A DNA stretch of 46,585 bases from an uncultured bacterium (GTDB taxonomy: Bacteria; Bdellovibrionota_C; UBA2361; JANWWW01): positions 1 to 46,585 of the forward strand of contig CALHSA010000031.1 in assembly GCA_938038205.1 (NCBI GenBank), read 5' to 3'. Below the pieces are notes generated by a model. That model saw nothing but the letters and a program-made list of their open reading frames with translations. It was not told where the DNA came from and did not search any database. Positions within the stretch are counted from its first letter, which is position 1. Each line of letters opens with the position of its first letter. Shown here in pieces: positions 4,467-38,411 of the stretch. The position numbers and the translations under genes are program-made.

Positions 4467-5717
4467 CTAGTTTACTAACCTTCTCCAAAGATCAGACTCA
4501 AAATAAGGGTCTTTATATTTTATGAACTCATCTAACATATTAAACATTTTTGAAAAAGTTTTGGTTTTGAGTCTAGAGTCCTTAGCTAAATATATCCTTC
4601 CACCTACATCTGCTATAAATTCATTAAGTCTATCCACTAGTCTGATTGTGTTTAAATTAACCGCAAAATCAATAGCTAAAGTGAATCCTTTTTTTGGAAA
4701 GGAAAGCAAGCCGTTTGGAGTTATATCTCCAAAATCTTTTAAGACCACAAGACTTGGGACTTCATTGAACTCTCTGATCAGTTTATAAACGCACTCAATT
4801 ATTTTAGGTTCTTTAGGAAAAACAGCCTGCCATTGCATTAAACCCCACTTGCCGTAAGCGTTGTTCCAACCTTGAATTGAATCGAGAGGAAAAAAAAAGT
4901 TTTGATAGTGGATAAAACTGTTGCCAGTCCGCATCCTTTTTACCCAATAATAGAATAAATTAAGGGCATTTATAGTCCATTTGTTAACTATTTTAATTTG
5001 AAACGGGAATTTTATTTTTATGTTTGGATCTCTACTATTTCGATCTGAGAAAGCTCCAGATATTAAAATTCCACGTATGGTATCTCTTGAGAAATCTAAC
5101 CAGGCAACAGTGTAAGGCCATGCTGCAGATTCCTCAATCAAACCTTGAGTTATCTCATTTAACCCATAAACGTTGGTAATTTTTTGCTGAATTGTTTTTC
5201 CAGGGATTTTAATGACTCTTAATTTTGCAGATAGAATTAAACCTGTTAAACCAAGCCCACCAACTGTCGCTCGAAATAAACCATCTTTGTTGGTAAGGTT
5301 ATGTATCTCACCATTACTCCTAAGTAGGGTTATCTCAGATACATTGTTTCCAAAAGACCCTTCTCGATGATGACTCTTGCCATGAATATCATTAGCGATA
5401 GCCCCACCCACCGTTACATACTGAGTTCCTGGAACTACTGGGAGAAATAAATTTCTACGTGATAAAAATGATAAAATACGTTTAATGCTCACACCAGCTT
5501 GTACTGTTAGAAACCCGTTTTCAACGTCCAAGTTTAGTATTGAGTCTAGGGTAGAGGTTACCAGATGGGTTCCTCGGGTGTTTAAACAAACGTCTCCATA
5601 ACTTCGTCCTAAACCAAATGGTAATACTGAGTGCTCTTTAGGTATAGAGCCTTTGAAGTACTGCCATTTTGAGCCAAAAACCGGTGGGTAATGTCCCCAA
5701 GATTCAATCACTGCCAT
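4467..5717 (-). CDS. FAD-binding oxidoreductase, DprE1-like
   Basis: This is a 416-residue flavoprotein of the VAO/PCMH family. The segment PGTQYVTVGGAIANDIHGK (96-114), followed by SHHREGSFGNNV, corresponds to the FAD-binding region of DprE1, the flavin subunit that oxidises polyprenylphosphoryl-ribose. The C-terminus reads AKDSR...FESDLWRRL, like the DprE1 tail. The start at 5717 lies inside the preceding tonB gene (14-base overlap), so the gene belongs to the Tol/TonB operon. Related D-arabinono-lactone-type oxidases are an alternative, but the adjacent SDR supports the DprE1/E2 pairing. Presence in a Gram-negative envelope operon is uncommon. Confidence 0.8.
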   Translation of the reverse strand: MAVIESWGHYPPVFGSKWQYFKGSIPKEHSVLPFGLGRSYGDVCLNTRGTHLVTSTLDSILNLDVENGFLTVQAGVSIKRILSFLSRRNLFLPVVPGTQYVTVGGAIANDIHGKSHHREGSFGNNVSEITLLRSNGEIHNLTNKDGLFRATVGGLGLTGLILSAKLRVIKIPGKTIQQKITNVYGLNEITQGLIEESAAWPYTVAWLDFSRDTIRGILISGAFSDRNSRDPNIKIKFPFQIKIVNKWTINALNLFYYWVKRMRTGNSFIHYQNFFFPLDSIQGWNNAYGKWGLMQWQAVFPKEPKIIECVYKLIREFNEVPSLVVLKDFGDITPNGLLSFPKKGFTLAIDFAVNLNTIRLVDRLNEFIADVGGRIYLAKDSRLKTKTFSKMFNMLDEFIKYKDPYFESDLWRRLVN

Positions 5718-13883: not shown

Positions 13884-15581
13884 GTGATAAGGGAGCGATT
13901 TCTTAATATTCTTGTTGATTCAAATGTTATAGAGCAGAGTCAAAAAAATCAGGTTTTGCAAATTATCGAGGCTGAAGGACTTGATTTATACTCAGCTTGT
14001 AGCAAACTTAGTGGAGTTTCTCCCTCTGAGCTACTATCAATAGTTGCAGATAGCTTAGGAGTTAAAGCAATTAAACTTGATGAGATCGAACTTGATCAGA
14101 GTCTTGTAGAGGTTATTCCAAGAAATTTAGCTCAGAAATATAAAGTAATCCCAATCAAGAAAGAGGGGAAAACTTTAGAGGTTGCTCTTGTTGACCCTAC
14201 GAATATTGTTATTATTAATGAACTAAAATTTATAACTTCTCACGATCTTAAGGTTTTTCTGATATCTGATGTTGAATTTGAGAAAGGTTTTGAGAATTTA
14301 TACGAGAATAATCAACTCGATAAAATAATTGACGATATCTCAGCGTCAGAAGGAAGTGTTGAAATTGTTGAAAATGAGGAGACAGTAAATCTTTCTGACT
14401 TGGAGAAACAGTCTGAAAGTGCTCCCGTAGTCAAACTTGTAAATGCTTTGATTGTAGATGCGATAAAAAAAAGAGCATCAGATGTTCACTTTGAGCCCTT
14501 TGAGAAGTACTTAAGAATCAGGTTTAGAATCGATGGTATTCTCTATGAGGTTATGCGGGTGCCGTTGAAACTTAAAAATAGTGTTCTCTCAAGAATAAAG
14601 ATAATGGCTGGCTTAGATATTTCCGAAAGACGTTTACCTCAGGATGGTCGGATTAAACTTTTAATGGGGAGTAAAGAGATTGATTTTAGAGTAAACACCA
14701 TTCCAACTGTTTTTGGGGAGAAAGCTGTTTTAAGGGTTCTAGATAAGAGTAATCTACATTTAGACTTAAAAACTTTAGGCTTCGAGAATTTTCAACTTGA
14801 GCTATTTAGAGAGGCAATCAAGAGGCCATATGGCTTGGTTCTTGTAGTTGGCCCTACTGGTAGTGGTAAAACAACTACTCTGTACTCTGCAATAATGGAA
14901 CTGAATCAACCTTCTCTTAACATAAGCACAATTGAGGATCCGGTGGAGTATCAGCTACCTGGTATAAATCAGCTGCAAACAAATGAAGAGATTGGTTTAA
15001 CCTTTGCATCTGCATTGAGGGCTTTTATGCGGCAGGACCCAGATATTATTCTTGTAGGAGAAATAAGAGATCTTGAAACAGCAGAGATTTCAGTAAAAGC
15101 TTCTCTAACTGGACACTTGGTACTATCTACACTTCACACCAATGACTCTACTTCAACCATTACCAGGCTTCTAAACATGGGGGTTGAGCCGTTTTTAGTC
15201 TCGACATCTTTAAACCTGATTATTGCTCAAAGATTATTACGCAGGGTTTGTGCAAATTGTGCTGAGCCCTATGAGGTTCATCCAGAAGCTCTATTAGATC
15301 TTGGTTTTTACGAATCAGAGATAAATTCAGTCACTCCTATCAAAGGAAGAGGATGTAAAAATTGCTCTGATACCGGCTATCGAGGGAGAGTTGCGATATA
15401 TGAGGTGTTAGCGGTTGATGATGAGATTAAGGACTTGATTCTAGGGGGTGTAACAGCTGTTGAGCTTAGGAGACATGCCAAAAGAAAGGGACTTCAAACG
15501 CTTAGAAGGTCAGCCTTGAATAAAGTCCTTGAAGGAGTAACAAGCTTAGAAGAGGTTGTAAGAGTAACAGTTAAAGATTAG
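13884..15581 (+). CDS. pilB: Type IV pilus extension ATPase PilB
   Basis: This 565-residue GspE/PilB-family ATPase starts at a GTG. It has an N-terminal MshEN-type domain (about 1-150), an N2 domain, and the ATPase core: Walker A GPTGSGKT at 323-330, aspartate box STIEDPVEYQLPGINQLQ, Walker B DPDIILVGEIRD, and His box LSTLHTND. The zinc-binding cysteines are CANC (456-459) and CKNC (491-494). It powers pilus polymerisation at the inner membrane. The stop codon lies one base before pilC. GspE of a type II system is possible, but the following regulator with a PilS-type sensor supports type IV pili. Confidence 0.93.
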   Translation: MIRERFLNILVDSNVIEQSQKNQVLQIIEAEGLDLYSACSKLSGVSPSELLSIVADSLGVKAIKLDEIELDQSLVEVIPRNLAQKYKVIPIKKEGKTLEVALVDPTNIVIINELKFITSHDLKVFLISDVEFEKGFENLYENNQLDKIIDDISASEGSVEIVENEETVNLSDLEKQSESAPVVKLVNALIVDAIKKRASDVHFEPFEKYLRIRFRIDGILYEVMRVPLKLKNSVLSRIKIMAGLDISERRLPQDGRIKLLMGSKEIDFRVNTIPTVFGEKAVLRVLDKSNLHLDLKTLGFENFQLELFREAIKRPYGLVLVVGPTGSGKTTTLYSAIMELNQPSLNISTIEDPVEYQLPGINQLQTNEEIGLTFASALRAFMRQDPDIILVGEIRDLETAEISVKASLTGHLVLSTLHTNDSTSTITRLLNMGVEPFLVSTSLNLIIAQRLLRRVCANCAEPYEVHPEALLDLGFYESEINSVTPIKGRGCKNCSDTGYRGRVAIYEVLAVDDEIKDLILGGVTAVELRRHAKRKGLQTLRRSALNKVLEGVTSLEEVVRVTVKD

Positions 15582-32292: not shown

Positions 32293-32915
32293 GGTTTTTA
32301 AATCTCGCGGTTCTATTTTTTTTATTTGGATGCTCTGGGGTTTTTATTAAGTCTAAAACTGAAAAAAATATAACGTTGGAGCATTATCTTAGTGTAAGGA
32401 ATAACGAAGTAGTTTTAAATGCTCCATTTAGGTTTCCTCTCAATCATCCGTATGGAATTACTTTGGCAACTTTGAAGTTAGGAAGGATTTGTGATCAAAG
32501 TGAGGTTAGTGGTGTTGGCAGTGGTGAGGTTGTAAATGTTGCACTCGTGTCAAAACTTCAGGACTGTGATACAGTTCAGATTGTAATTGTCTCGGGGCGG
32601 TTTGCGAACAATACTAAAAATTTCCAAAACGCTACTCCTTGGCTTTCTTCAGTTGAACTAATTCCTCAGCTTGTTAATTGCCTTTCTGAGTCATGCTATT
32701 CAAAAGTCCAAGCAAAGATTAAAATTGGTTGGCCAGAGGATTTTCTTAACGATTTAAAGATTAATTTAGTGTTTTTTAATAATACAACAGGTGATAGGTT
32801 AAAAGAAGATACCAGGATTGTTCCAGCTAAAACAGAGACTCTTGAGCTTGAGTATCAGTTGCCTGTTGATGTGAGTGTTTTTAATGTATCAGTTGAAGTA
32901 GAGCTTCTTACTTAA
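32289..32915 (+). CDS. Putative lipoprotein of unknown function
   Basis: This 208-residue protein has a TTG start. The signal sequence RFLNLAVLFFLFGC places the lipobox (LFGC) at Cys 15, so the mature protein is lipid-anchored in the envelope. The mature part is beta-rich with four further cysteines (two as CLSESC) that could form disulphides. I recognise no family. It is translationally coupled to the small membrane protein before it and overlaps the convergent fliG by four bases. Confidence 0.65.
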   Translation: MRFLNLAVLFFLFGCSGVFIKSKTEKNITLEHYLSVRNNEVVLNAPFRFPLNHPYGITLATLKLGRICDQSEVSGVGSGEVVNVALVSKLQDCDTVQIVIVSGRFANNTKNFQNATPWLSSVELIPQLVNCLSESCYSKVQAKIKIGWPEDFLNDLKINLVFFNNTTGDRLKEDTRIVPAKTETLELEYQLPVDVSVFNVSVEVELLT

Positions 32916-33910
32916 ACGTATTGCTCCTCAGCTCCTCCACCAATAGCAATTTTACCCTCTGCTTCAAGTTTCCTAATTATATCTATTATTTGTTGTTGAG
33001 CTTTTTCAACATCTTTAACTTTTACTGGGCCCATTGCTGAAAGGTCATCTTTAATCATTTCAGCGGCTCTTTGACTGACATTCCTGAAAATGAGAGATTT
33101 AATATCCTCAGATGCTGTTTTAAGTGCCAAAACGAGTAAATCTCTTGGCACCTCTTTGAGGACGGTTTGAATACTCCTGTCATCCAGCTTTTTAATATCC
33201 TCAAAAGTAAACATTAGATTACGAATCTCTTCTGCCAACTCGGGTTGAGTTTCCTCTAATTCTCCCAGTATTCTTGTTTCAATTTTTCGATCTACGTAGT
33301 TTAAGATATTTGCCACAGCTTTAGGACCCCCGGTTTCCTCATCCCTGGTAAGTAAAGTTCCCCTTAGTTGATTTTTTAAAACCTCTCTAACTTCATCTAC
33401 TACCTCTGCTTTAACCGGGCCTAGTTTTGCTATTCTTTGTATAATGTCTAGCTGTTCTTCCTCTGGTAAAGCTTGAATAACTTGAGCTGCTATATCAGGA
33501 GGAATTTTTGCAAGAAGAAATGCTGCAGTCTGAGGATGTTAACCCGATATAAACCCAACCAGGATGTTAAGTGGAGTATCTGATATAATTTGAGCTATCG
33601 ATTCTTTTTTTGCTCCAGTAATGTAGTCTAGTAAGCTTTCAGCATTTGCTCCAAAGGCACCTGCTATTACCTCTTTGGCAAACTCTTTACCATCAACCAA
33701 AACTGTTTTTCCGGCCTTAAGCATGTTTCTAAACTCTTTGGCAATTTGGAATTGAGTTTCTCTATCTAATTCTGATACTGACATGAATGCTCGGGAAATT
33801 TTCTTGACCTCATGCTCAGAAAGATGTTGCAATATCTTTGATGCTGCATCCTTCCCTAGTGTTAGCAAAGTTAGTGCTGCTTTCTCAGTTGAAGATAACT
33901 CTCGAGGCAC
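32912..33910 (-). pseudogene. fliG: fliG, flagellar motor switch gene interrupted by one in-frame TAA
   Basis: A 333-codon frame runs from a GTG at 33910 to the stop at 32912, the usual FliG length (about 330-345). Codon 124 (33541-33539) is TAA. Before it are 123 residues of FliG N-domain (SSTEKAALTLLTLGKDAASKILQHLSE). After it the frame continues with HPQTAAFLLAKIPPDIAAQVI, the middle domain, and the full C-domain (LMFTFEDIKKLDDRSIQ, MGPVKVKDVEKAQQQI). FliG normally has EHPQT here, so a single GAA-to-TAA change explains the break. AAGGA precedes the GTG by five bases. No other lesion is seen. It is a recent nonsense mutation, a sequencing error, or a read-through site. No flagellar genes adjoin it. 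Confidence 0.88.
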
Positions 33911-33936: not shown

Positions 33937-34854
33937 ATGGAGCTAGAAAGTTTCATTGACAGATTATCCAAGGATGTTTTGCGGAGTTTAAAGAGACTAG
34001 CTAGCGAAAAAAAATTAAAACAGAACAGAATTTTTGTTTTTACAAACTCAAGACTTTTTTTATCATTTTACCCAAATGTAAGAGAGTATCATGCTGCGCT
34101 GTATTTGTCAGATTTATTTATTAATAACGGTATTCTTTGCCCAAAACCGGTTTTGGCTATAAAGCACTATAGAGTTATTTTTTATGAGTATGTTTACGGT
34201 CAGCTTATAGCAGAGCTTAAATTTGGCTTAAATAAAACGCTAGAATCAGCTCTGGAGATCTGTCAGAAACTTCATAAACTTAATGTTGATTCTAAATATT
34301 TAGCTTTAGGGCCTATGACTAAATCTTCATTTTTTCGGATACTAGATTCTGTTGTTAGAATCTCAAATGCAGCTGGACTAAAATTTAATAGGAAGAGCCT
34401 GTCTAAAGAGTGCAGTAATATCTTGGATAGAGTTTTTAAAAAAGGTAGAAAATTTAGTTTCATTCACCATGATTTTCAAGGTCGAAACCTTATAAAAACT
34501 AAAAAAGGTATTTATATAACGGATTTTGAGAGGGCCCGGATTGGTCTACCTGAGTGGGATATTTCTGCGCTTATTTTTAGTTCATCATTAAAATGGTCTT
34601 TTGATAGAAAACTAAATTTTCTTTGTGAGATTTGTAGCAGATTAAAATTGAACTATGAAGATGTTATTTTGGTTAGTTTTTTACGTCTACTACGCGGAGT
34701 TGAAAGACGCTTACAAGTACTTGAAAACCCTGATAAGCAGTATTTTGTCCAATCATTCAAATCCACTCTTATCCAAATCGGGGAATTATCCAGGGTCTTG
34801 GGTTTGGAAAATTTTGAAAACTTCTGTAAAGAACTAATCAACTACCAAAGCTAA
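33937..34854 (+). CDS. APH/choline kinase-like phosphotransferase
   Basis: This 305-residue protein kinase-like enzyme has a catalytic loop HHDFQGRNLI (about 176-185), matching HxDxxxxN, and a metal-binding DFE (ITDFERARIG) in place of DFG/DWE. EWDISALIF follows, as in APH-type kinases. The N-lobe is short and has FYEYVYG at the hinge. Substrate unknown: sugar, lipid head-group or small metabolite. LPS core kinases are also possible. It lies divergent from fliG and overlaps the convergent SpoA gene by 21 bases. Confidence 0.75.
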   Translation: MELESFIDRLSKDVLRSLKRLASEKKLKQNRIFVFTNSRLFLSFYPNVREYHAALYLSDLFINNGILCPKPVLAIKHYRVIFYEYVYGQLIAELKFGLNKTLESALEICQKLHKLNVDSKYLALGPMTKSSFFRILDSVVRISNAAGLKFNRKSLSKECSNILDRVFKKGRKFSFIHHDFQGRNLIKTKKGIYITDFERARIGLPEWDISALIFSSSLKWSFDRKLNFLCEICSRLKLNYEDVILVSFLRLLRGVERRLQVLENPDKQYFVQSFKSTLIQIGELSRVLGLENFENFCKELINYQS

Positions 34855-35805
34855 TCTTTGGTCATAGACATATATTTTGCCAGTAGCTAGATAATCAGCA
34901 CCTACCTTGATTTTGCAAGATGGCGTAACCGGTTCATTTGAGAAGAGTGGTTCTCCTTTCTCCAGACTTTTTTGAAGATCTGGAACTCTCACTTTAAACA
35001 GTTCAATTTGAAGTAAAGCTTTTCCTTGAGTGTTAGAGATCCTAAATACCTCTTTACTCGTTGGTTTGAAAACCCATTTTCCCTCTGCAATTCCTAAAAC
35101 ACCTGTAATCGCGCTATCCTTCTCCAATTTCAGGTAAGCACGTGACGTAATCGGTACTTCTAAGTCTATTACTGATTCCGAATTTAAATACTCTTCTATC
35201 TCATTCACTGGGACCATGAGAAAACACAAATTAACACTTAATTCGTCCCCAGTTGGATCTGTAGCTGTTTTTAAATATGATGCTCCAAAGCTCGAGTTTA
35301 ATAAAAGGTATACTTCAACTAAATTGTAATTAAGTAGGAATTCAATTTTGAGAGTAAAAGGAAAACTTGTTTTTGTATTTGAATGTGAAGTAAATCGAGC
35401 ATCTTTAAAAATTTTTGAACGGGATAGTAAAAAAATGAATTTTCTTGCAAGATACTCGAGCAGCTCCGATGAGTATGAAACTTCTTCCTCAAAAAAAATT
35501 TTTTCTAAAGTTTTTGTTGTTTTTAGCGGAATCACAAGGCAATTAATACCATTCTTCTCGAAATAAAATGTGAGATTGGATGCTTTTGGAATACTTTGAG
35601 CTGGATTTACTACAAGGCTTGAAATCTCGATTCCGAAAAGTTTGAAAAAATAATCGAATTCAGTTTTAAGAATAATAAAATCTTCTTCAGAGTAGTTATT
35701 AAGTATTATTTTTTCGGTTAAATTAAGACTAAGATCTATCTGTTCAACATAAGCTTCTGGCTTCCAAATTGTCAAAGATATTTCATCACTGTCGTTCTGG
35801 CTCAT
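34834..35805 (-). CDS. SpoA-domain protein (FliM/FliN/SctQ-like)
   Basis: This 323-residue protein has a diverged N-terminal two-thirds without clear motifs. The C-terminus reads FSNEPVTPSCKIKVGADYLATGKIYVYDQRLALVV, which fits the SpoA fold of FliN and SctQ (L-x-V-G-x-x-x-A-x-G-x-x-x-V-x-x-R-x-x-x-x-V). A possible first SpoA unit lies around 215-275. SctQ/FliM-N proteins build the cytoplasmic C-ring or sorting platform of type III secretion systems and flagella. It is the last gene of the FHA operon and overlaps the 76-residue gene by 20 bases. The similarity is by pattern only. Confidence 0.5.
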   Translation of the reverse strand: MSQNDSDEISLTIWKPEAYVEQIDLSLNLTEKIILNNYSEEDFIILKTEFDYFFKLFGIEISSLVVNPAQSIPKASNLTFYFEKNGINCLVIPLKTTKTLEKIFFEEEVSYSSELLEYLARKFIFLLSRSKIFKDARFTSHSNTKTSFPFTLKIEFLLNYNLVEVYLLLNSSFGASYLKTATDPTGDELSVNLCFLMVPVNEIEEYLNSESVIDLEVPITSRAYLKLEKDSAITGVLGIAEGKWVFKPTSKEVFRISNTQGKALLQIELFKVRVPDLQKSLEKGEPLFSNEPVTPSCKIKVGADYLATGKIYVYDQRLALVVD

Positions 35806-36016
35806 TATAACGTCGCAGGTAAGTAAGCAATATGCATACTCTCACTTGAAATGGGATTTTGGTTAAATAATCAAGAACAACATGTTCACGGTTCATGGAT
35901 TGGTCGTTTAAAAAAACTGATTTTGCTTCTAATCCATCTAAGAAAGCTCCCAAAAAAACTAAAAGTCTACGTTTACGATCTAATGAGCTTAGGGCATCAT
36001 ACAAAGTTAGGGACAT
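35786..36016 (-). CDS. Small helical protein in the FHA-SpoA operon
   Basis: This 76-residue protein is predicted all-helical (MSLTLYDALSSLDRKRRLLVFL...), with no membrane segment of clear length and no known motif. Its ATG overlaps the stop of the zinc-ribbon/FHA gene (TAATG), and its end overlaps the SpoA gene by 20 bases. This tight coupling on both sides is the main evidence that it is real. It could be a partner or chaperone of the SpoA protein. Confidence 0.6.
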   Translation of the reverse strand: MSLTLYDALSSLDRKRRLLVFLGAFLDGLEAKSVFLNDQSMNREHVVLDYLTKIPFQVRVCILLTYLRRYNEPERQ

Positions 36017-36855
36017 TACCTAAAGAGGACACAAAGCAATTTAACTTTCCCAACTACTAACTCATCTCTGTCATGCAGTTCCCCAAAAGTATCCACTCGA
36101 GTTTTTGCATTTTTTCTCTGAATATATGTTCCGAAATCACTCATTAAATCCATAACTTTAATTGGACCATTCTCTGGGATTTGGATAATGGCATGTGGAA
36201 CACTTACCGATGAGTCAGGAATGAGAATCTCCCTATTACTTCCTCGTAACTGCTGAGATGTGATTAGGAACTTCCCGCTTCTTAATTCCACACTTTGACC
36301 CAGGCCGTCAGTTATTACTAACCATCCTCTTAGTACACCGTCTTGTATTGGTGCTTCTGATTGATTGATTTCATTGGGACTTTTCTCCTCCATTTCTACA
36401 ACATTCAATTGCTCTTGATCAGCCTCAGTTATTCTTGAACTTGTTTTTGACATCCCAGTATCTACTTCATCCTCAGGCTCTTCTTCAAAAAGAAAATCAT
36501 CAAAATCCTCCCCGAAATCTTCATCATCTGAGTCTTCATCGTCTTCGAAATCTAGATTAATATCTTCCTCATCCGTTTGATTCTTTTCTTCGTATTTCGT
36601 ATCTAAATCATCCTCAGCTTCTTCAAGACCAATATCAGATTCTTCTTCAGTGAAGCTAGTATCTGTCTTTTTAGAAACCGACTCTCTTACTTTTTTTACC
36701 AGCTCGGAAAACTTCTGATCACCATCACCTGAAGTAGCAACCCTTTGTCTAGGGGCTGGTTCTTCAGCTAATGGGGCACCACACATTCTGCATGTTTTAG
36801 CAGACGATGGTACTAAACTCCTGCAACTCGGACATCTTATGAATGAAAGTTCCAT
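36016..36855 (-). CDS. Zinc-ribbon and FHA-domain protein with an acidic linker
   Basis: This 279-residue protein has an N-terminal zinc ribbon (CPSC...CRMC, residues about 8-25), a long highly acidic and probably disordered middle (about 60-165), and a C-terminal FHA domain (about 180-279). The FHA domain has SVPHAIIQI and DFGTYIQRKN in place of the canonical SxxH and NG positions. The phosphothreonine-binding Arg position is not well kept (ITSQQLRGSNREI). There is no membrane helix. It overlaps the upstream multi-FHA gene by 19 bases, so the two products probably act together. Confidence 0.75.
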   Translation of the reverse strand: MELSFIRCPSCRSLVPSSAKTCRMCGAPLAEEPAPRQRVATSGDGDQKFSELVKKVRESVSKKTDTSFTEEESDIGLEEAEDDLDTKYEEKNQTDEEDINLDFEDDEDSDDEDFGEDFDDFLFEEEPEDEVDTGMSKTSSRITEADQEQLNVVEMEEKSPNEINQSEAPIQDGVLRGWLVITDGLGQSVELRSGKFLITSQQLRGSNREILIPDSSVSVPHAIIQIPENGPIKVMDLMSDFGTYIQRKNAKTRVDTFGELHDRDELVVGKVKLLCVLFR

Positions 36856-37979
36856 ATCAATAAACCAATTAAAACCATTATTAAAATTATAACACAGATC
36901 CGAAAAATAATTTTTTTCAGATCCTTCCGTTTAGATGCATTGAGATCAATTTTTTCTTCACTTATTTCGTTAACGGAATCAAGTTCATCTCTTGTTTTTT
37001 GAAGACTTAAAAATTTTTCCTCATCATTTTCGTTAAAACATAACCCTAATTTCAAATCTTTTCCCAAATTAATAACAGTGAAAGTATTTGATATAAGAAT
37101 TTTATCGCCATTTTTTAGAAGTGTTTGATTTACAAGAGTCCCGTTAGTGCTACAGTCCTCAATTTGAATATCTTCGAAATTTTCTCCTACTTTAATTCGT
37201 AAATGCACTCTGCTTACATGTGGTGCTGGCACCCAAATATCATTACTTGGTTCTCTACCGATTGTTATTGTTGAGTTTGTTGATATTGGAAGTTTCAGTG
37301 GCCTAATAAGGGGGCTTCTGGCAATTAAACAGGGATAAGATTCAACAGAAAACGTGAATTTAGATGGTAAGGCATGTGTTTCCAGGTTTAGAACTTCGTT
37401 TAACATGTTTTCTGAGTTAACAACAACTACCCTATACTTATCATTAAGCGTTATCACTGAACCAAAATCAACTTCAACTAATCCGGTTATTGGACTTGAA
37501 TCTACGTATAGTATTCCGTTGCCTTCATTAGATACATTTACTGAATTATTCTTAATATATATTGAACAATGAGTATCAAACAGTCCTTCAAGAACTATGG
37601 TGTTATGTTGACCCGATCCTAGTGTTATTTTCTTTTGCGAAAAACAGGAACTGACTGCAACTTCAAGGTCTTTAAAAAAAACTAAACAAGGGAATGGAGA
37701 ATTAAATTTGACAGCTTTAACAAGCAATTCACGCGGATTAAATTCTTCAGCTGGGAAAAGGTCTAAATCCAAGCTTTGTATTGCTACTGTGCAACCTGAA
37801 ATTTCAAGCTTGGCAAAAGAATTAAAAATTTTTTTTTCATCATTAATTTTCACAGAGAAAAAACTAGATTGAAGCTTATTTACTTTGAGCATCTGATCTC
37901 CAAGTTTTAACTCAATAAAAGGACTTTTTATTAATTCCTCTGAGAGATTTCCTCCATCTTGTAAAGTTATGTAAAACAT
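36837..37979 (-). CDS. Tail-anchored multi-FHA-domain protein
   Basis: This 380-residue protein has a possible N-terminal beta domain (1-85), a degenerate FHA domain (about 118-190, GS instead of GR and THCSI), and a canonical FHA domain (about 238-310) with GR (241-242), SRVH (256-259) and STNGT (277-281). A polar linker and one C-terminal membrane helix (about 357-377) leave only a few residues outside. SctD-type secretion proteins also have cytoplasmic FHA folds, but they continue into a large periplasmic part that is missing here. First gene of the operon; GAAAGG touches its ATG. Confidence 0.78.
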   Translation of the reverse strand: MFYITLQDGGNLSEELIKSPFIELKLGDQMLKVNKLQSSFFSVKINDEKKIFNSFAKLEISGCTVAIQSLDLDLFPAEEFNPRELLVKAVKFNSPFPCLVFFKDLEVAVSSCFSQKKITLGSGQHNTIVLEGLFDTHCSIYIKNNSVNVSNEGNGILYVDSSPITGLVEVDFGSVITLNDKYRVVVVNSENMLNEVLNLETHALPSKFTFSVESYPCLIARSPLIRPLKLPISTNSTITIGREPSNDIWVPAPHVSRVHLRIKVGENFEDIQIEDCSTNGTLVNQTLLKNGDKILISNTFTVINLGKDLKLGLCFNENDEEKFLSLQKTRDELDSVNEISEEKIDLNASKRKDLKKIIFRICVIILIMVLIGLLIWNFHS

Positions 37980-38048: not shown

Positions 38049-38411
38049 ATGAAAAATATTTTATTTGTGGATGATGATCTTAACTCCTTAGAGGTTACAA
38101 AATTTTTATTCGAGCAGGCTGGTTACAGATGTTTAGCGGCTCTTAATTATGATCAGGCTCTTGAGATTTTAAAAAAAGAAAAGGTTGACGCTGCAGTTAT
38201 AGATTTAAGAATGCCTGGGGTTGACGGAAATCAGCTTATTAAGGATATAAGGGCTAGTTTGTCATTCCCAATTGTTGCTTTTACAGCGTTAGATAGTTTT
38301 GAGGTGCATGAACAAGCTATTTCGAATGGTGCAAACTGCGTGATTACGAAGCCTTGTGCTCCTCAACTTTTACTGAACACTGTTAAAGAGTTGATAGAGT
38401 CGTGCCACTAA
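38049..38411 (+). CDS. Stand-alone receiver-domain protein (CheY-like)
   Basis: The frame opens at 37998, but the ATG at 38049 gives the canonical receiver start MKNILFVDDD and a 120-residue protein. The phosphoacceptor is Asp 52 (AVIDLRMPGVDG), with a conserved Thr near 79 (VAFTA) and Lys 101 (ITKPC). There is no output domain. It lies divergent from the multi-FHA gene, 69 bases apart, so it may share control with that operon. Its kinase and target are unknown. Confidence 0.88.
   Translation: MKNILFVDDDLNSLEVTKFLFEQAGYRCLAALNYDQALEILKKEKVDAAVIDLRMPGVDGNQLIKDIRASLSFPIVAFTALDSFEVHEQAISNGANCVITKPCAPQLLLNTVKELIESCH

Follow-up and report, generated by a model that had tools for sequence, protein, structure and literature searches.

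A four-gene operon of FHA proteins and SctQ as the probable cytoplasmic platform of a type III secretion system that evolved with a Tad pilus

Why should a putative type III secretion ring protein be encoded with FHA proteins only? The question is raised by an operon of four genes on a contig of 46,585 nucleotides (CALHSA010000031.1; the window, that is, the whole stretch of DNA analysed) from an uncultured bacterium of the Bdellovibrionota_C. We propose, with a probability of roughly 0.7, that the operon encodes the cytoplasmic platform, or "pod", of a non-flagellar type III secretion system (NF-T3SS) which evolved with a Tad pilus, and that the gene string to which it belonged is split in this genome. 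The window genome (G000) is a metagenome-assembled genome (MAG) of 1.2 Mb in 46 contigs, 81% complete, of which the window is contig C31; its family (f1) is sampled by this genome and one other, G001, which is 85% complete. Contigs of the window genome are given below as C numbers and loci of relatives as L numbers. The four genes are as follows.

FHA-TM, 36837..37979, minus strand: three FHA folds and a C-terminal tail anchor (predicted).
Zn-FHA, 36016..36855, minus strand: four-cysteine zinc ribbon, acidic linker and degenerate FHA domain.
76-residue helical protein, 35786..36016, minus strand: represented by a 21-member alignment.
SctQ, 34834..35805, minus strand: FliM/CheC-like domain and two SpoA domains (predicted).

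An initial annotation had described four genes in one direction with short overlaps, and the coordinates of the open reading frames bear this out: FHA-TM and Zn-FHA share 19 nucleotides (36837-36855), Zn-FHA and the 76-residue gene one (36016), and the latter and SctQ 20 (35786-35805). Nor is the grouping due to chance, since the same order of all four recurs in many genera. None of the four frames is interrupted in either family genome, at 31-48% identity between the two, which together with the retention of key residues described below indicates purifying selection.

Is the fourth product indeed a SctQ? Pfam confirmed FHA domains in the first two products and returned SpoA in the fourth at an E-value of 0.1 only, so that the earlier claim of a SpoA-like C-terminus needed further proof. 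An AlphaFold model made from the class-wide alignment (mean predicted local distance difference test score, pLDDT, 82) has a predicted SpoA fold, and its best Foldseek match is the FliM(SPOA)::FliN fusion 4yxc (E 4e-6), followed by FliM and CheC/CheX folds. In profile comparison the first SpoA half matches YscQ-C (3uep, E 1.5e-4) and the second half matches FliN. Given the predicted fold and these profile matches, the product of 34834-35805 can be identified as a whole SctQ, with a FliM/CheC-type domain ahead of what are in fact two SpoA domains. Its sequence is highly divergent, at only 15-39% identity to the class homologues: used as a single query it found matches in 18 of 58 genomes and none in the named genomes, while the alignment as query found them in 42 of the 46 genomes of the class. 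One homologue is labelled SctQ by NCBIfam, and the homologue in L030 exceeds the Pfam FliMN_C cut-off (27.8 bits).

The earlier description of a tail-anchored multi-FHA protein also stands. FHA-TM matches Pfam FHA (1.6e-16) and Yop-YscD_cpl (2.5e-9), and its AlphaFold model (pLDDT 81) shows three consecutive predicted FHA folds and a C-terminal helix, for which Foldseek returns FHA domains including that of CT664/CdsD (3gqs). The membrane helix spans residues 357-375 and only five residues follow it, leaving no room for a SctD-like periplasmic ring domain. The residues of the phosphothreonine site in the third FHA domain (FHA3: GR, SRxH and S(T/S)NGT) are all kept in 13 of 13 homologues; those of FHA2 are present in most of the class and lost in the window's family. 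In Zn-FHA, as had been noticed, a zinc ribbon precedes an acidic stretch and an FHA domain: the cysteines C8, C11, C22 and C25 are invariant in 13 homologues, 47 of the 110 linker residues are aspartate or glutamate, and Pfam matches FHA at 5.7e-6 and zinc-ribbon families at about 2e-4. Neither GR nor SRxH is present in this FHA domain in any of the 13 homologues, and the protein is probably a soluble adapter. Its profile matches all 46 class genomes, in some of them through an FHA paralogue only, and the named relatives found with the Zn-FHA alignment are MAGs labelled Deltaproteobacteria, Bdellovibrionales, Oligoflexia and similar. The 76-residue protein, which has no match in Pfam or among chains of the PDB, is kept class-wide and lies in relatives between sctJ and sctQ, the position of the sctK slot in ysc-type operons. 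The idea that it might be a relative of the FliG N-terminus, suggested by its place after sctJ, found no support in profile comparison (probability 0.4%).

The neighbours of these genes in relatives indicate what kind of machine they belong to. Genes around SctQ homologues run FHA-TM, Zn-FHA, a gene of about 290 codons, the 76-residue gene, a coiled-coil gene, SctQ and further genes; the four-gene order is thus conserved, with sctJ and a sctO-like gene inserted. The L030 locus encodes SctJ (YscJ_FliF, 8e-16), SctR (FliP, 8e-40), SctS (9e-12), SctU (7e-16), a FliJ-like coiled coil (a weak match) and a SctY/LcrH-like TPR chaperone, and in the fullest strings (L091, L096 and L101) SctV and a HEAT protein precede FHA-TM. 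The composite string reads PP2C, FHA, Ser/Thr kinase, CpaE, CpaB, TadA, TadB, TadC and SctV, followed by pseudokinase-HEAT, FHA-TM, Zn-FHA, SctJ, the 76-residue gene, the SctO-like gene, SctQ, SctR, S, T, U and the TPR chaperone; unnamed small genes remain within the loci. The export gate SctRSTUV and SctJ are therefore present in relatives. The initial annotation had named sctJ, sctV and protein-kinase genes among the linked genes to look for, and all of these lie in the same string. Judged by its gene content, the string is a non-flagellar type III superoperon. SctQ is encoded between sctJ and sctR in it, and in the window with the FHA genes only.

The first part of the string is a Tad system. 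Upstream of SctV of the FHA-linked type (hereafter the first type), G003 encodes PP2C, FHA, Ser/Thr kinase, a CpaE-like ATPase, CpaB, TadA, TadB and TadC; here the Tad genes were assigned by Pfam (CpaB as RcpC, TadA as T2SSE, TadB and TadC as two T2SSF), and in other loci by similarity. TadC lies immediately upstream of first-type SctV in all 14 distinct loci outside family f1 in which this position is visible, and upstream of SctV of a second type in none of six. Because the loci share a common descent, the linkage is to be read as one ancient arrangement that was retained, not as 14 independent events. CpaB, TadA, TadB and TadC are all present together with FHA proteins, as in the Kil-type Tad system, and the HEAT protein directly after SctV is conserved (L032:2110-4686, L037:15635-18223, L056:12004-14247). 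As to the number of Tad systems, the window genome has three CpaB/RcpC genes (C13, C14 and C33) in its 1.2 Mb. Genes for a Tad ATPase and platform proteins accompany at least two of the three, and relatives have from one to six CpaB/RcpC genes.

In the window genome the string is split, with its parts on four contigs at least.

C7: PP2C, FHA, kinase and CpaE.
C13: CpaB, TadA, TadB and TadC.
C2: SctV and pseudokinase-HEAT.
C31 (the window): FHA-TM, Zn-FHA, 76-residue protein and SctQ.

Two FlhA/SctV genes are found in this genome, one flagellar and one on C2, and the latter falls within the FHA-locus clade of the SctV tree (support 100/98). Likewise there are two FliP-family genes, one flagellar and one on C24. 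The C24 gene, the sole non-flagellar SctR of the genome, lies outside the main FHA-locus SctR clade (100/100) and groups with second-type SctR and FliP (99/96); the idea that the SctRSTU of C24 belong to the first-type system was rejected on this tree and on their gene neighbours. Of the export-gate genes, a first-type SctV on C2 and SctRSTU of the second type only were thus found in the window genome. No further copy, of the first type, was found in either family genome with the SctR alignment at E <= 10, and the corresponding search for first-type SctJ gave nothing convincing, FliF alone appearing in the window genome. In both genomes sctJ is gone from its slot between Zn-FHA and the 76-residue gene.

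As judged from gene order, then, the four-gene operon is a relocated fragment of a complete NF-T3SS. The initial annotation had suggested a reduced platform lacking export-apparatus genes. A type III-derived platform joined to FHA proteins is what we find, though not one that stood alone by origin; "reduced" holds solely in the sense that two incomplete genomes yielded no first-type SctR or SctJ, and the export genes are lacking locally but not genome-wide, given SctV on C2, a SctN-like ATPase on C41 and the second-type SctRSTU on C24.

How might such a platform work? We envisage that FHA-TM stands in for the cytoplasmic portion of SctD and would hold the SctQ pods at the inner membrane, and that FHA3 would dock a threonine-phosphorylated partner. 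The phosphothreonine would presumably be written by the linked Ser/Thr kinase and erased by the linked PP2C phosphatase, and the platform might assemble upon a contact signal and act with the Tad pilus, on the model of T3SS* and Kil of Myxococcus xanthus. Phosphothreonine control of the platform is plausible. The first-type gate missing here may have been lost, its role passing to the second-type SctRSTU of C24, or it may simply not have been assembled.

Several points weigh against the proposal of a split, Tad-associated NF-T3SS. All members are MAGs, known from sequence only. The HEAT protein beside SctV was considered as an active kinase and rejected, as it is missing the P-loop, the VAIK lysine and DFG; being a pseudokinase, it leaves a separate kinase as the source of phosphate, and such a Ser/Thr kinase, with all kinase motifs intact, is encoded on C7 and in relatives. 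The FHA-locus SctR of G002, G006, G027, L091 and L101 form a small group outside the main clade, and with these five on the second type's side of the midpoint root the two types separate less cleanly for SctR than for SctV. The ATPase on C41, a further member of the FliI/SctN family, scores 287 bits, below the curated cut-off of 379.5. Finally, the absence of SctR and SctJ counts for little at the completeness of these two genomes.

That last point feeds the most serious alternative, namely that this is an ordinary dispersed T3SS from which nothing was lost, its first-type SctJ, SctR and the rest lying in sequence that the assembly does not cover. We regard this as quite possible, though on balance we do not favor it. 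In G003, a sister lineage according to the SctV tree, the SctR, SctS and TPR genes have moved to another contig, the window genome is only 81% complete, and NF-T3SS genes are scattered in Chlamydia too (PMC3459982); on the other side, genomes of 81% and 85% completeness are both without first-type SctR and SctJ, and the sctJ slot is empty in both. More tentatively, we speculate that in this streamlined family the platform of SctV, SctQ and the FHA proteins lost its own gate and ring and now serves the Tad pilus as a base under kinase control, or borrows the second gate, and, more widely, that the Tad pilus and a needleless T3SS would be one machine by descent with a single gene string encoding both; this we hold to be rather doubtful.

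A related explanation, that in the window's family the same set of proteins has been exapted, without export, to serve the Tad pilus as its phospho-regulated base or switch, appears unlikely. It would account for first-type SctV, SctQ, the FHA proteins, the pseudokinase and Tad having been kept when no first-type SctR or SctJ is found, but the persisting second-type SctRSTU and SctN-like ATPase could act as a gate. We consider it very improbable that the operon is the relic of a decaying T3SS: genome reduction, a broken superoperon and missing partners would fit decay, yet the frames stay open at the identities given above and the FHA3 and zinc-binding residues are kept. Least credible of all is that the SctQ-like protein is a FliY/FliM-like extra of the flagellar C-ring, as might be read from fliG (32912-33910, minus strand), which lies one convergent gene away on the same strand as the operon and adjoins the locus in G001 as well, for bona fide FliM and FliN are encoded separately on C16, the neighbours outside the window's family are SctJ and SctR with none flagellar, and the homologue's NCBIfam match is SctQ.

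Among described systems, the closest by analogy would be the needleless T3SS* of M. xanthus (the "Myxo" NF-T3SS group of Abby and Rocha) together with the Kil Tad pilus. T3SS* (MXAN_2434-2464) is an NF-T3SS with SctJ, SctQ, SctRSTUV, SctN and LcrH-like chaperones (PMC10433427); it lacks needle and secretin and is recruited by the Kil Tad pilus at prey contact (PMC12075869, PMC10433427). The gene set of the string is likewise that of an NF-T3SS, and the two non-flagellar sets found here may be compared with the long and the short locus of the Myxococcales systems without secretin or needle (PMC3459982). In contrast to T3SS*, the genes here are strung together with those for Tad, a kinase and a phosphatase, the place of SctD is taken by two FHA proteins, and SctU of this set stops before its autocleaved C-terminal domain. 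Our literature search found no paper on FHA genes within MXAN_2434-2464. Kil (MXAN_3102-3108 and 4648-4661) shares a Tad ATPase, CpaB, two platform proteins and a richness in FHA proteins, and cooperates with T3SS* on contact with prey (PMC8460266, PMC12075869); FHA proteins have been proposed to relay the contact signal in M. xanthus (PMC8460266). However, the Kil genes lie in clusters separate from T3SS*, and KilF has an N-terminal FHA domain (PMC8460266), whereas the TadA examined here, that of G003, has no Pfam FHA.

A second comparison is with SctD of Chlamydia, CdsD (CT664; PMC3635987), in which FHA domains likewise occur in an inner-membrane component of a T3SS near kinase signalling, CdsD being phosphorylated by PknD (PMC2765968). 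FHA-TM differs in having no periplasmic ring domain, and its FHA3 keeps a phosphothreonine site that is poorly conserved in PrgH-type SctD (PMC3635987). SctQ itself resembles the SctQ/FliM-FliN proteins in its predicted FliM/CheC-like domain and two SpoA domains, in contrast to its low sequence identity.

What is new, within the library examined, is a Tad-T3SS-kinase string that spans the class, the placing of two FHA proteins at the SctD/SctK position, and a family whose first-type gate and ring are not found. In M. xanthus, the interaction of Kil with T3SS* and the signal for assembly are stated open questions (PMC10433427, PMC8460266, PMC12075869). Tad genes placed before SctV throughout a class, together with kinase, phosphatase and FHA genes, lead to the testable guess that both machines are physically one, and to a second, that their assembly is driven by threonine phosphorylation which an FHA domain reads. 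The arrangement also suggests that SctQ can pair with a tail-anchored FHA protein without the periplasmic domain of SctD.

Divergent from FHA-TM lies one further gene of the locus.

Single-domain response regulator, 38049..38411, plus strand: CheY-like (Pfam Response_reg 5.5e-23).

Its start is likely at 38049 rather than 37998, and homologues adjoin the same locus in many relatives. In the window, fliG is interrupted near codon 124 by one in-frame TAA, its frame being otherwise intact, and mutation and sequencing error would both account for this; in G001 the portion of fliG covered has no such stop. The gene lies apart from the fliF-fliH-fliI cluster (C18), which is without fliG. A further FHA protein that has a membrane helix at its C-terminus (L043:408-1277) adjoins the flagellar cluster of its genome.

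In the FHA-linked T3SS, SctU stops before the autocleaved C-terminal domain (L030:6088-6798, L101:11710-12453, L073:6720-7412). Most copies are 195-275 residues long and have no NPTH; a system that does not switch substrates would be consistent with this. In the second type, SctU is encoded in two genes (L055:11403-12032 and 14813-15055; L064:7961-8770 and 4511-4780); its membrane part stops just ahead of the would-be NPTH autocleavage site, a histidine kinase gene sits between the two pieces, and the protein looks, from this gene structure, to be pre-cut at the gene level. The order on C24 (SctR, S, T, U, histidine kinase and a separate SctU C-terminal piece) is the same as in L061 and L064. 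Second T3SS loci L060, L063, L067 and L118 have their own SctJ, SpoA proteins and SctV; in several of these a small gene of 74-81 codons follows SctJ, and in L060 a sigma-70 factor gene lies ahead of it.

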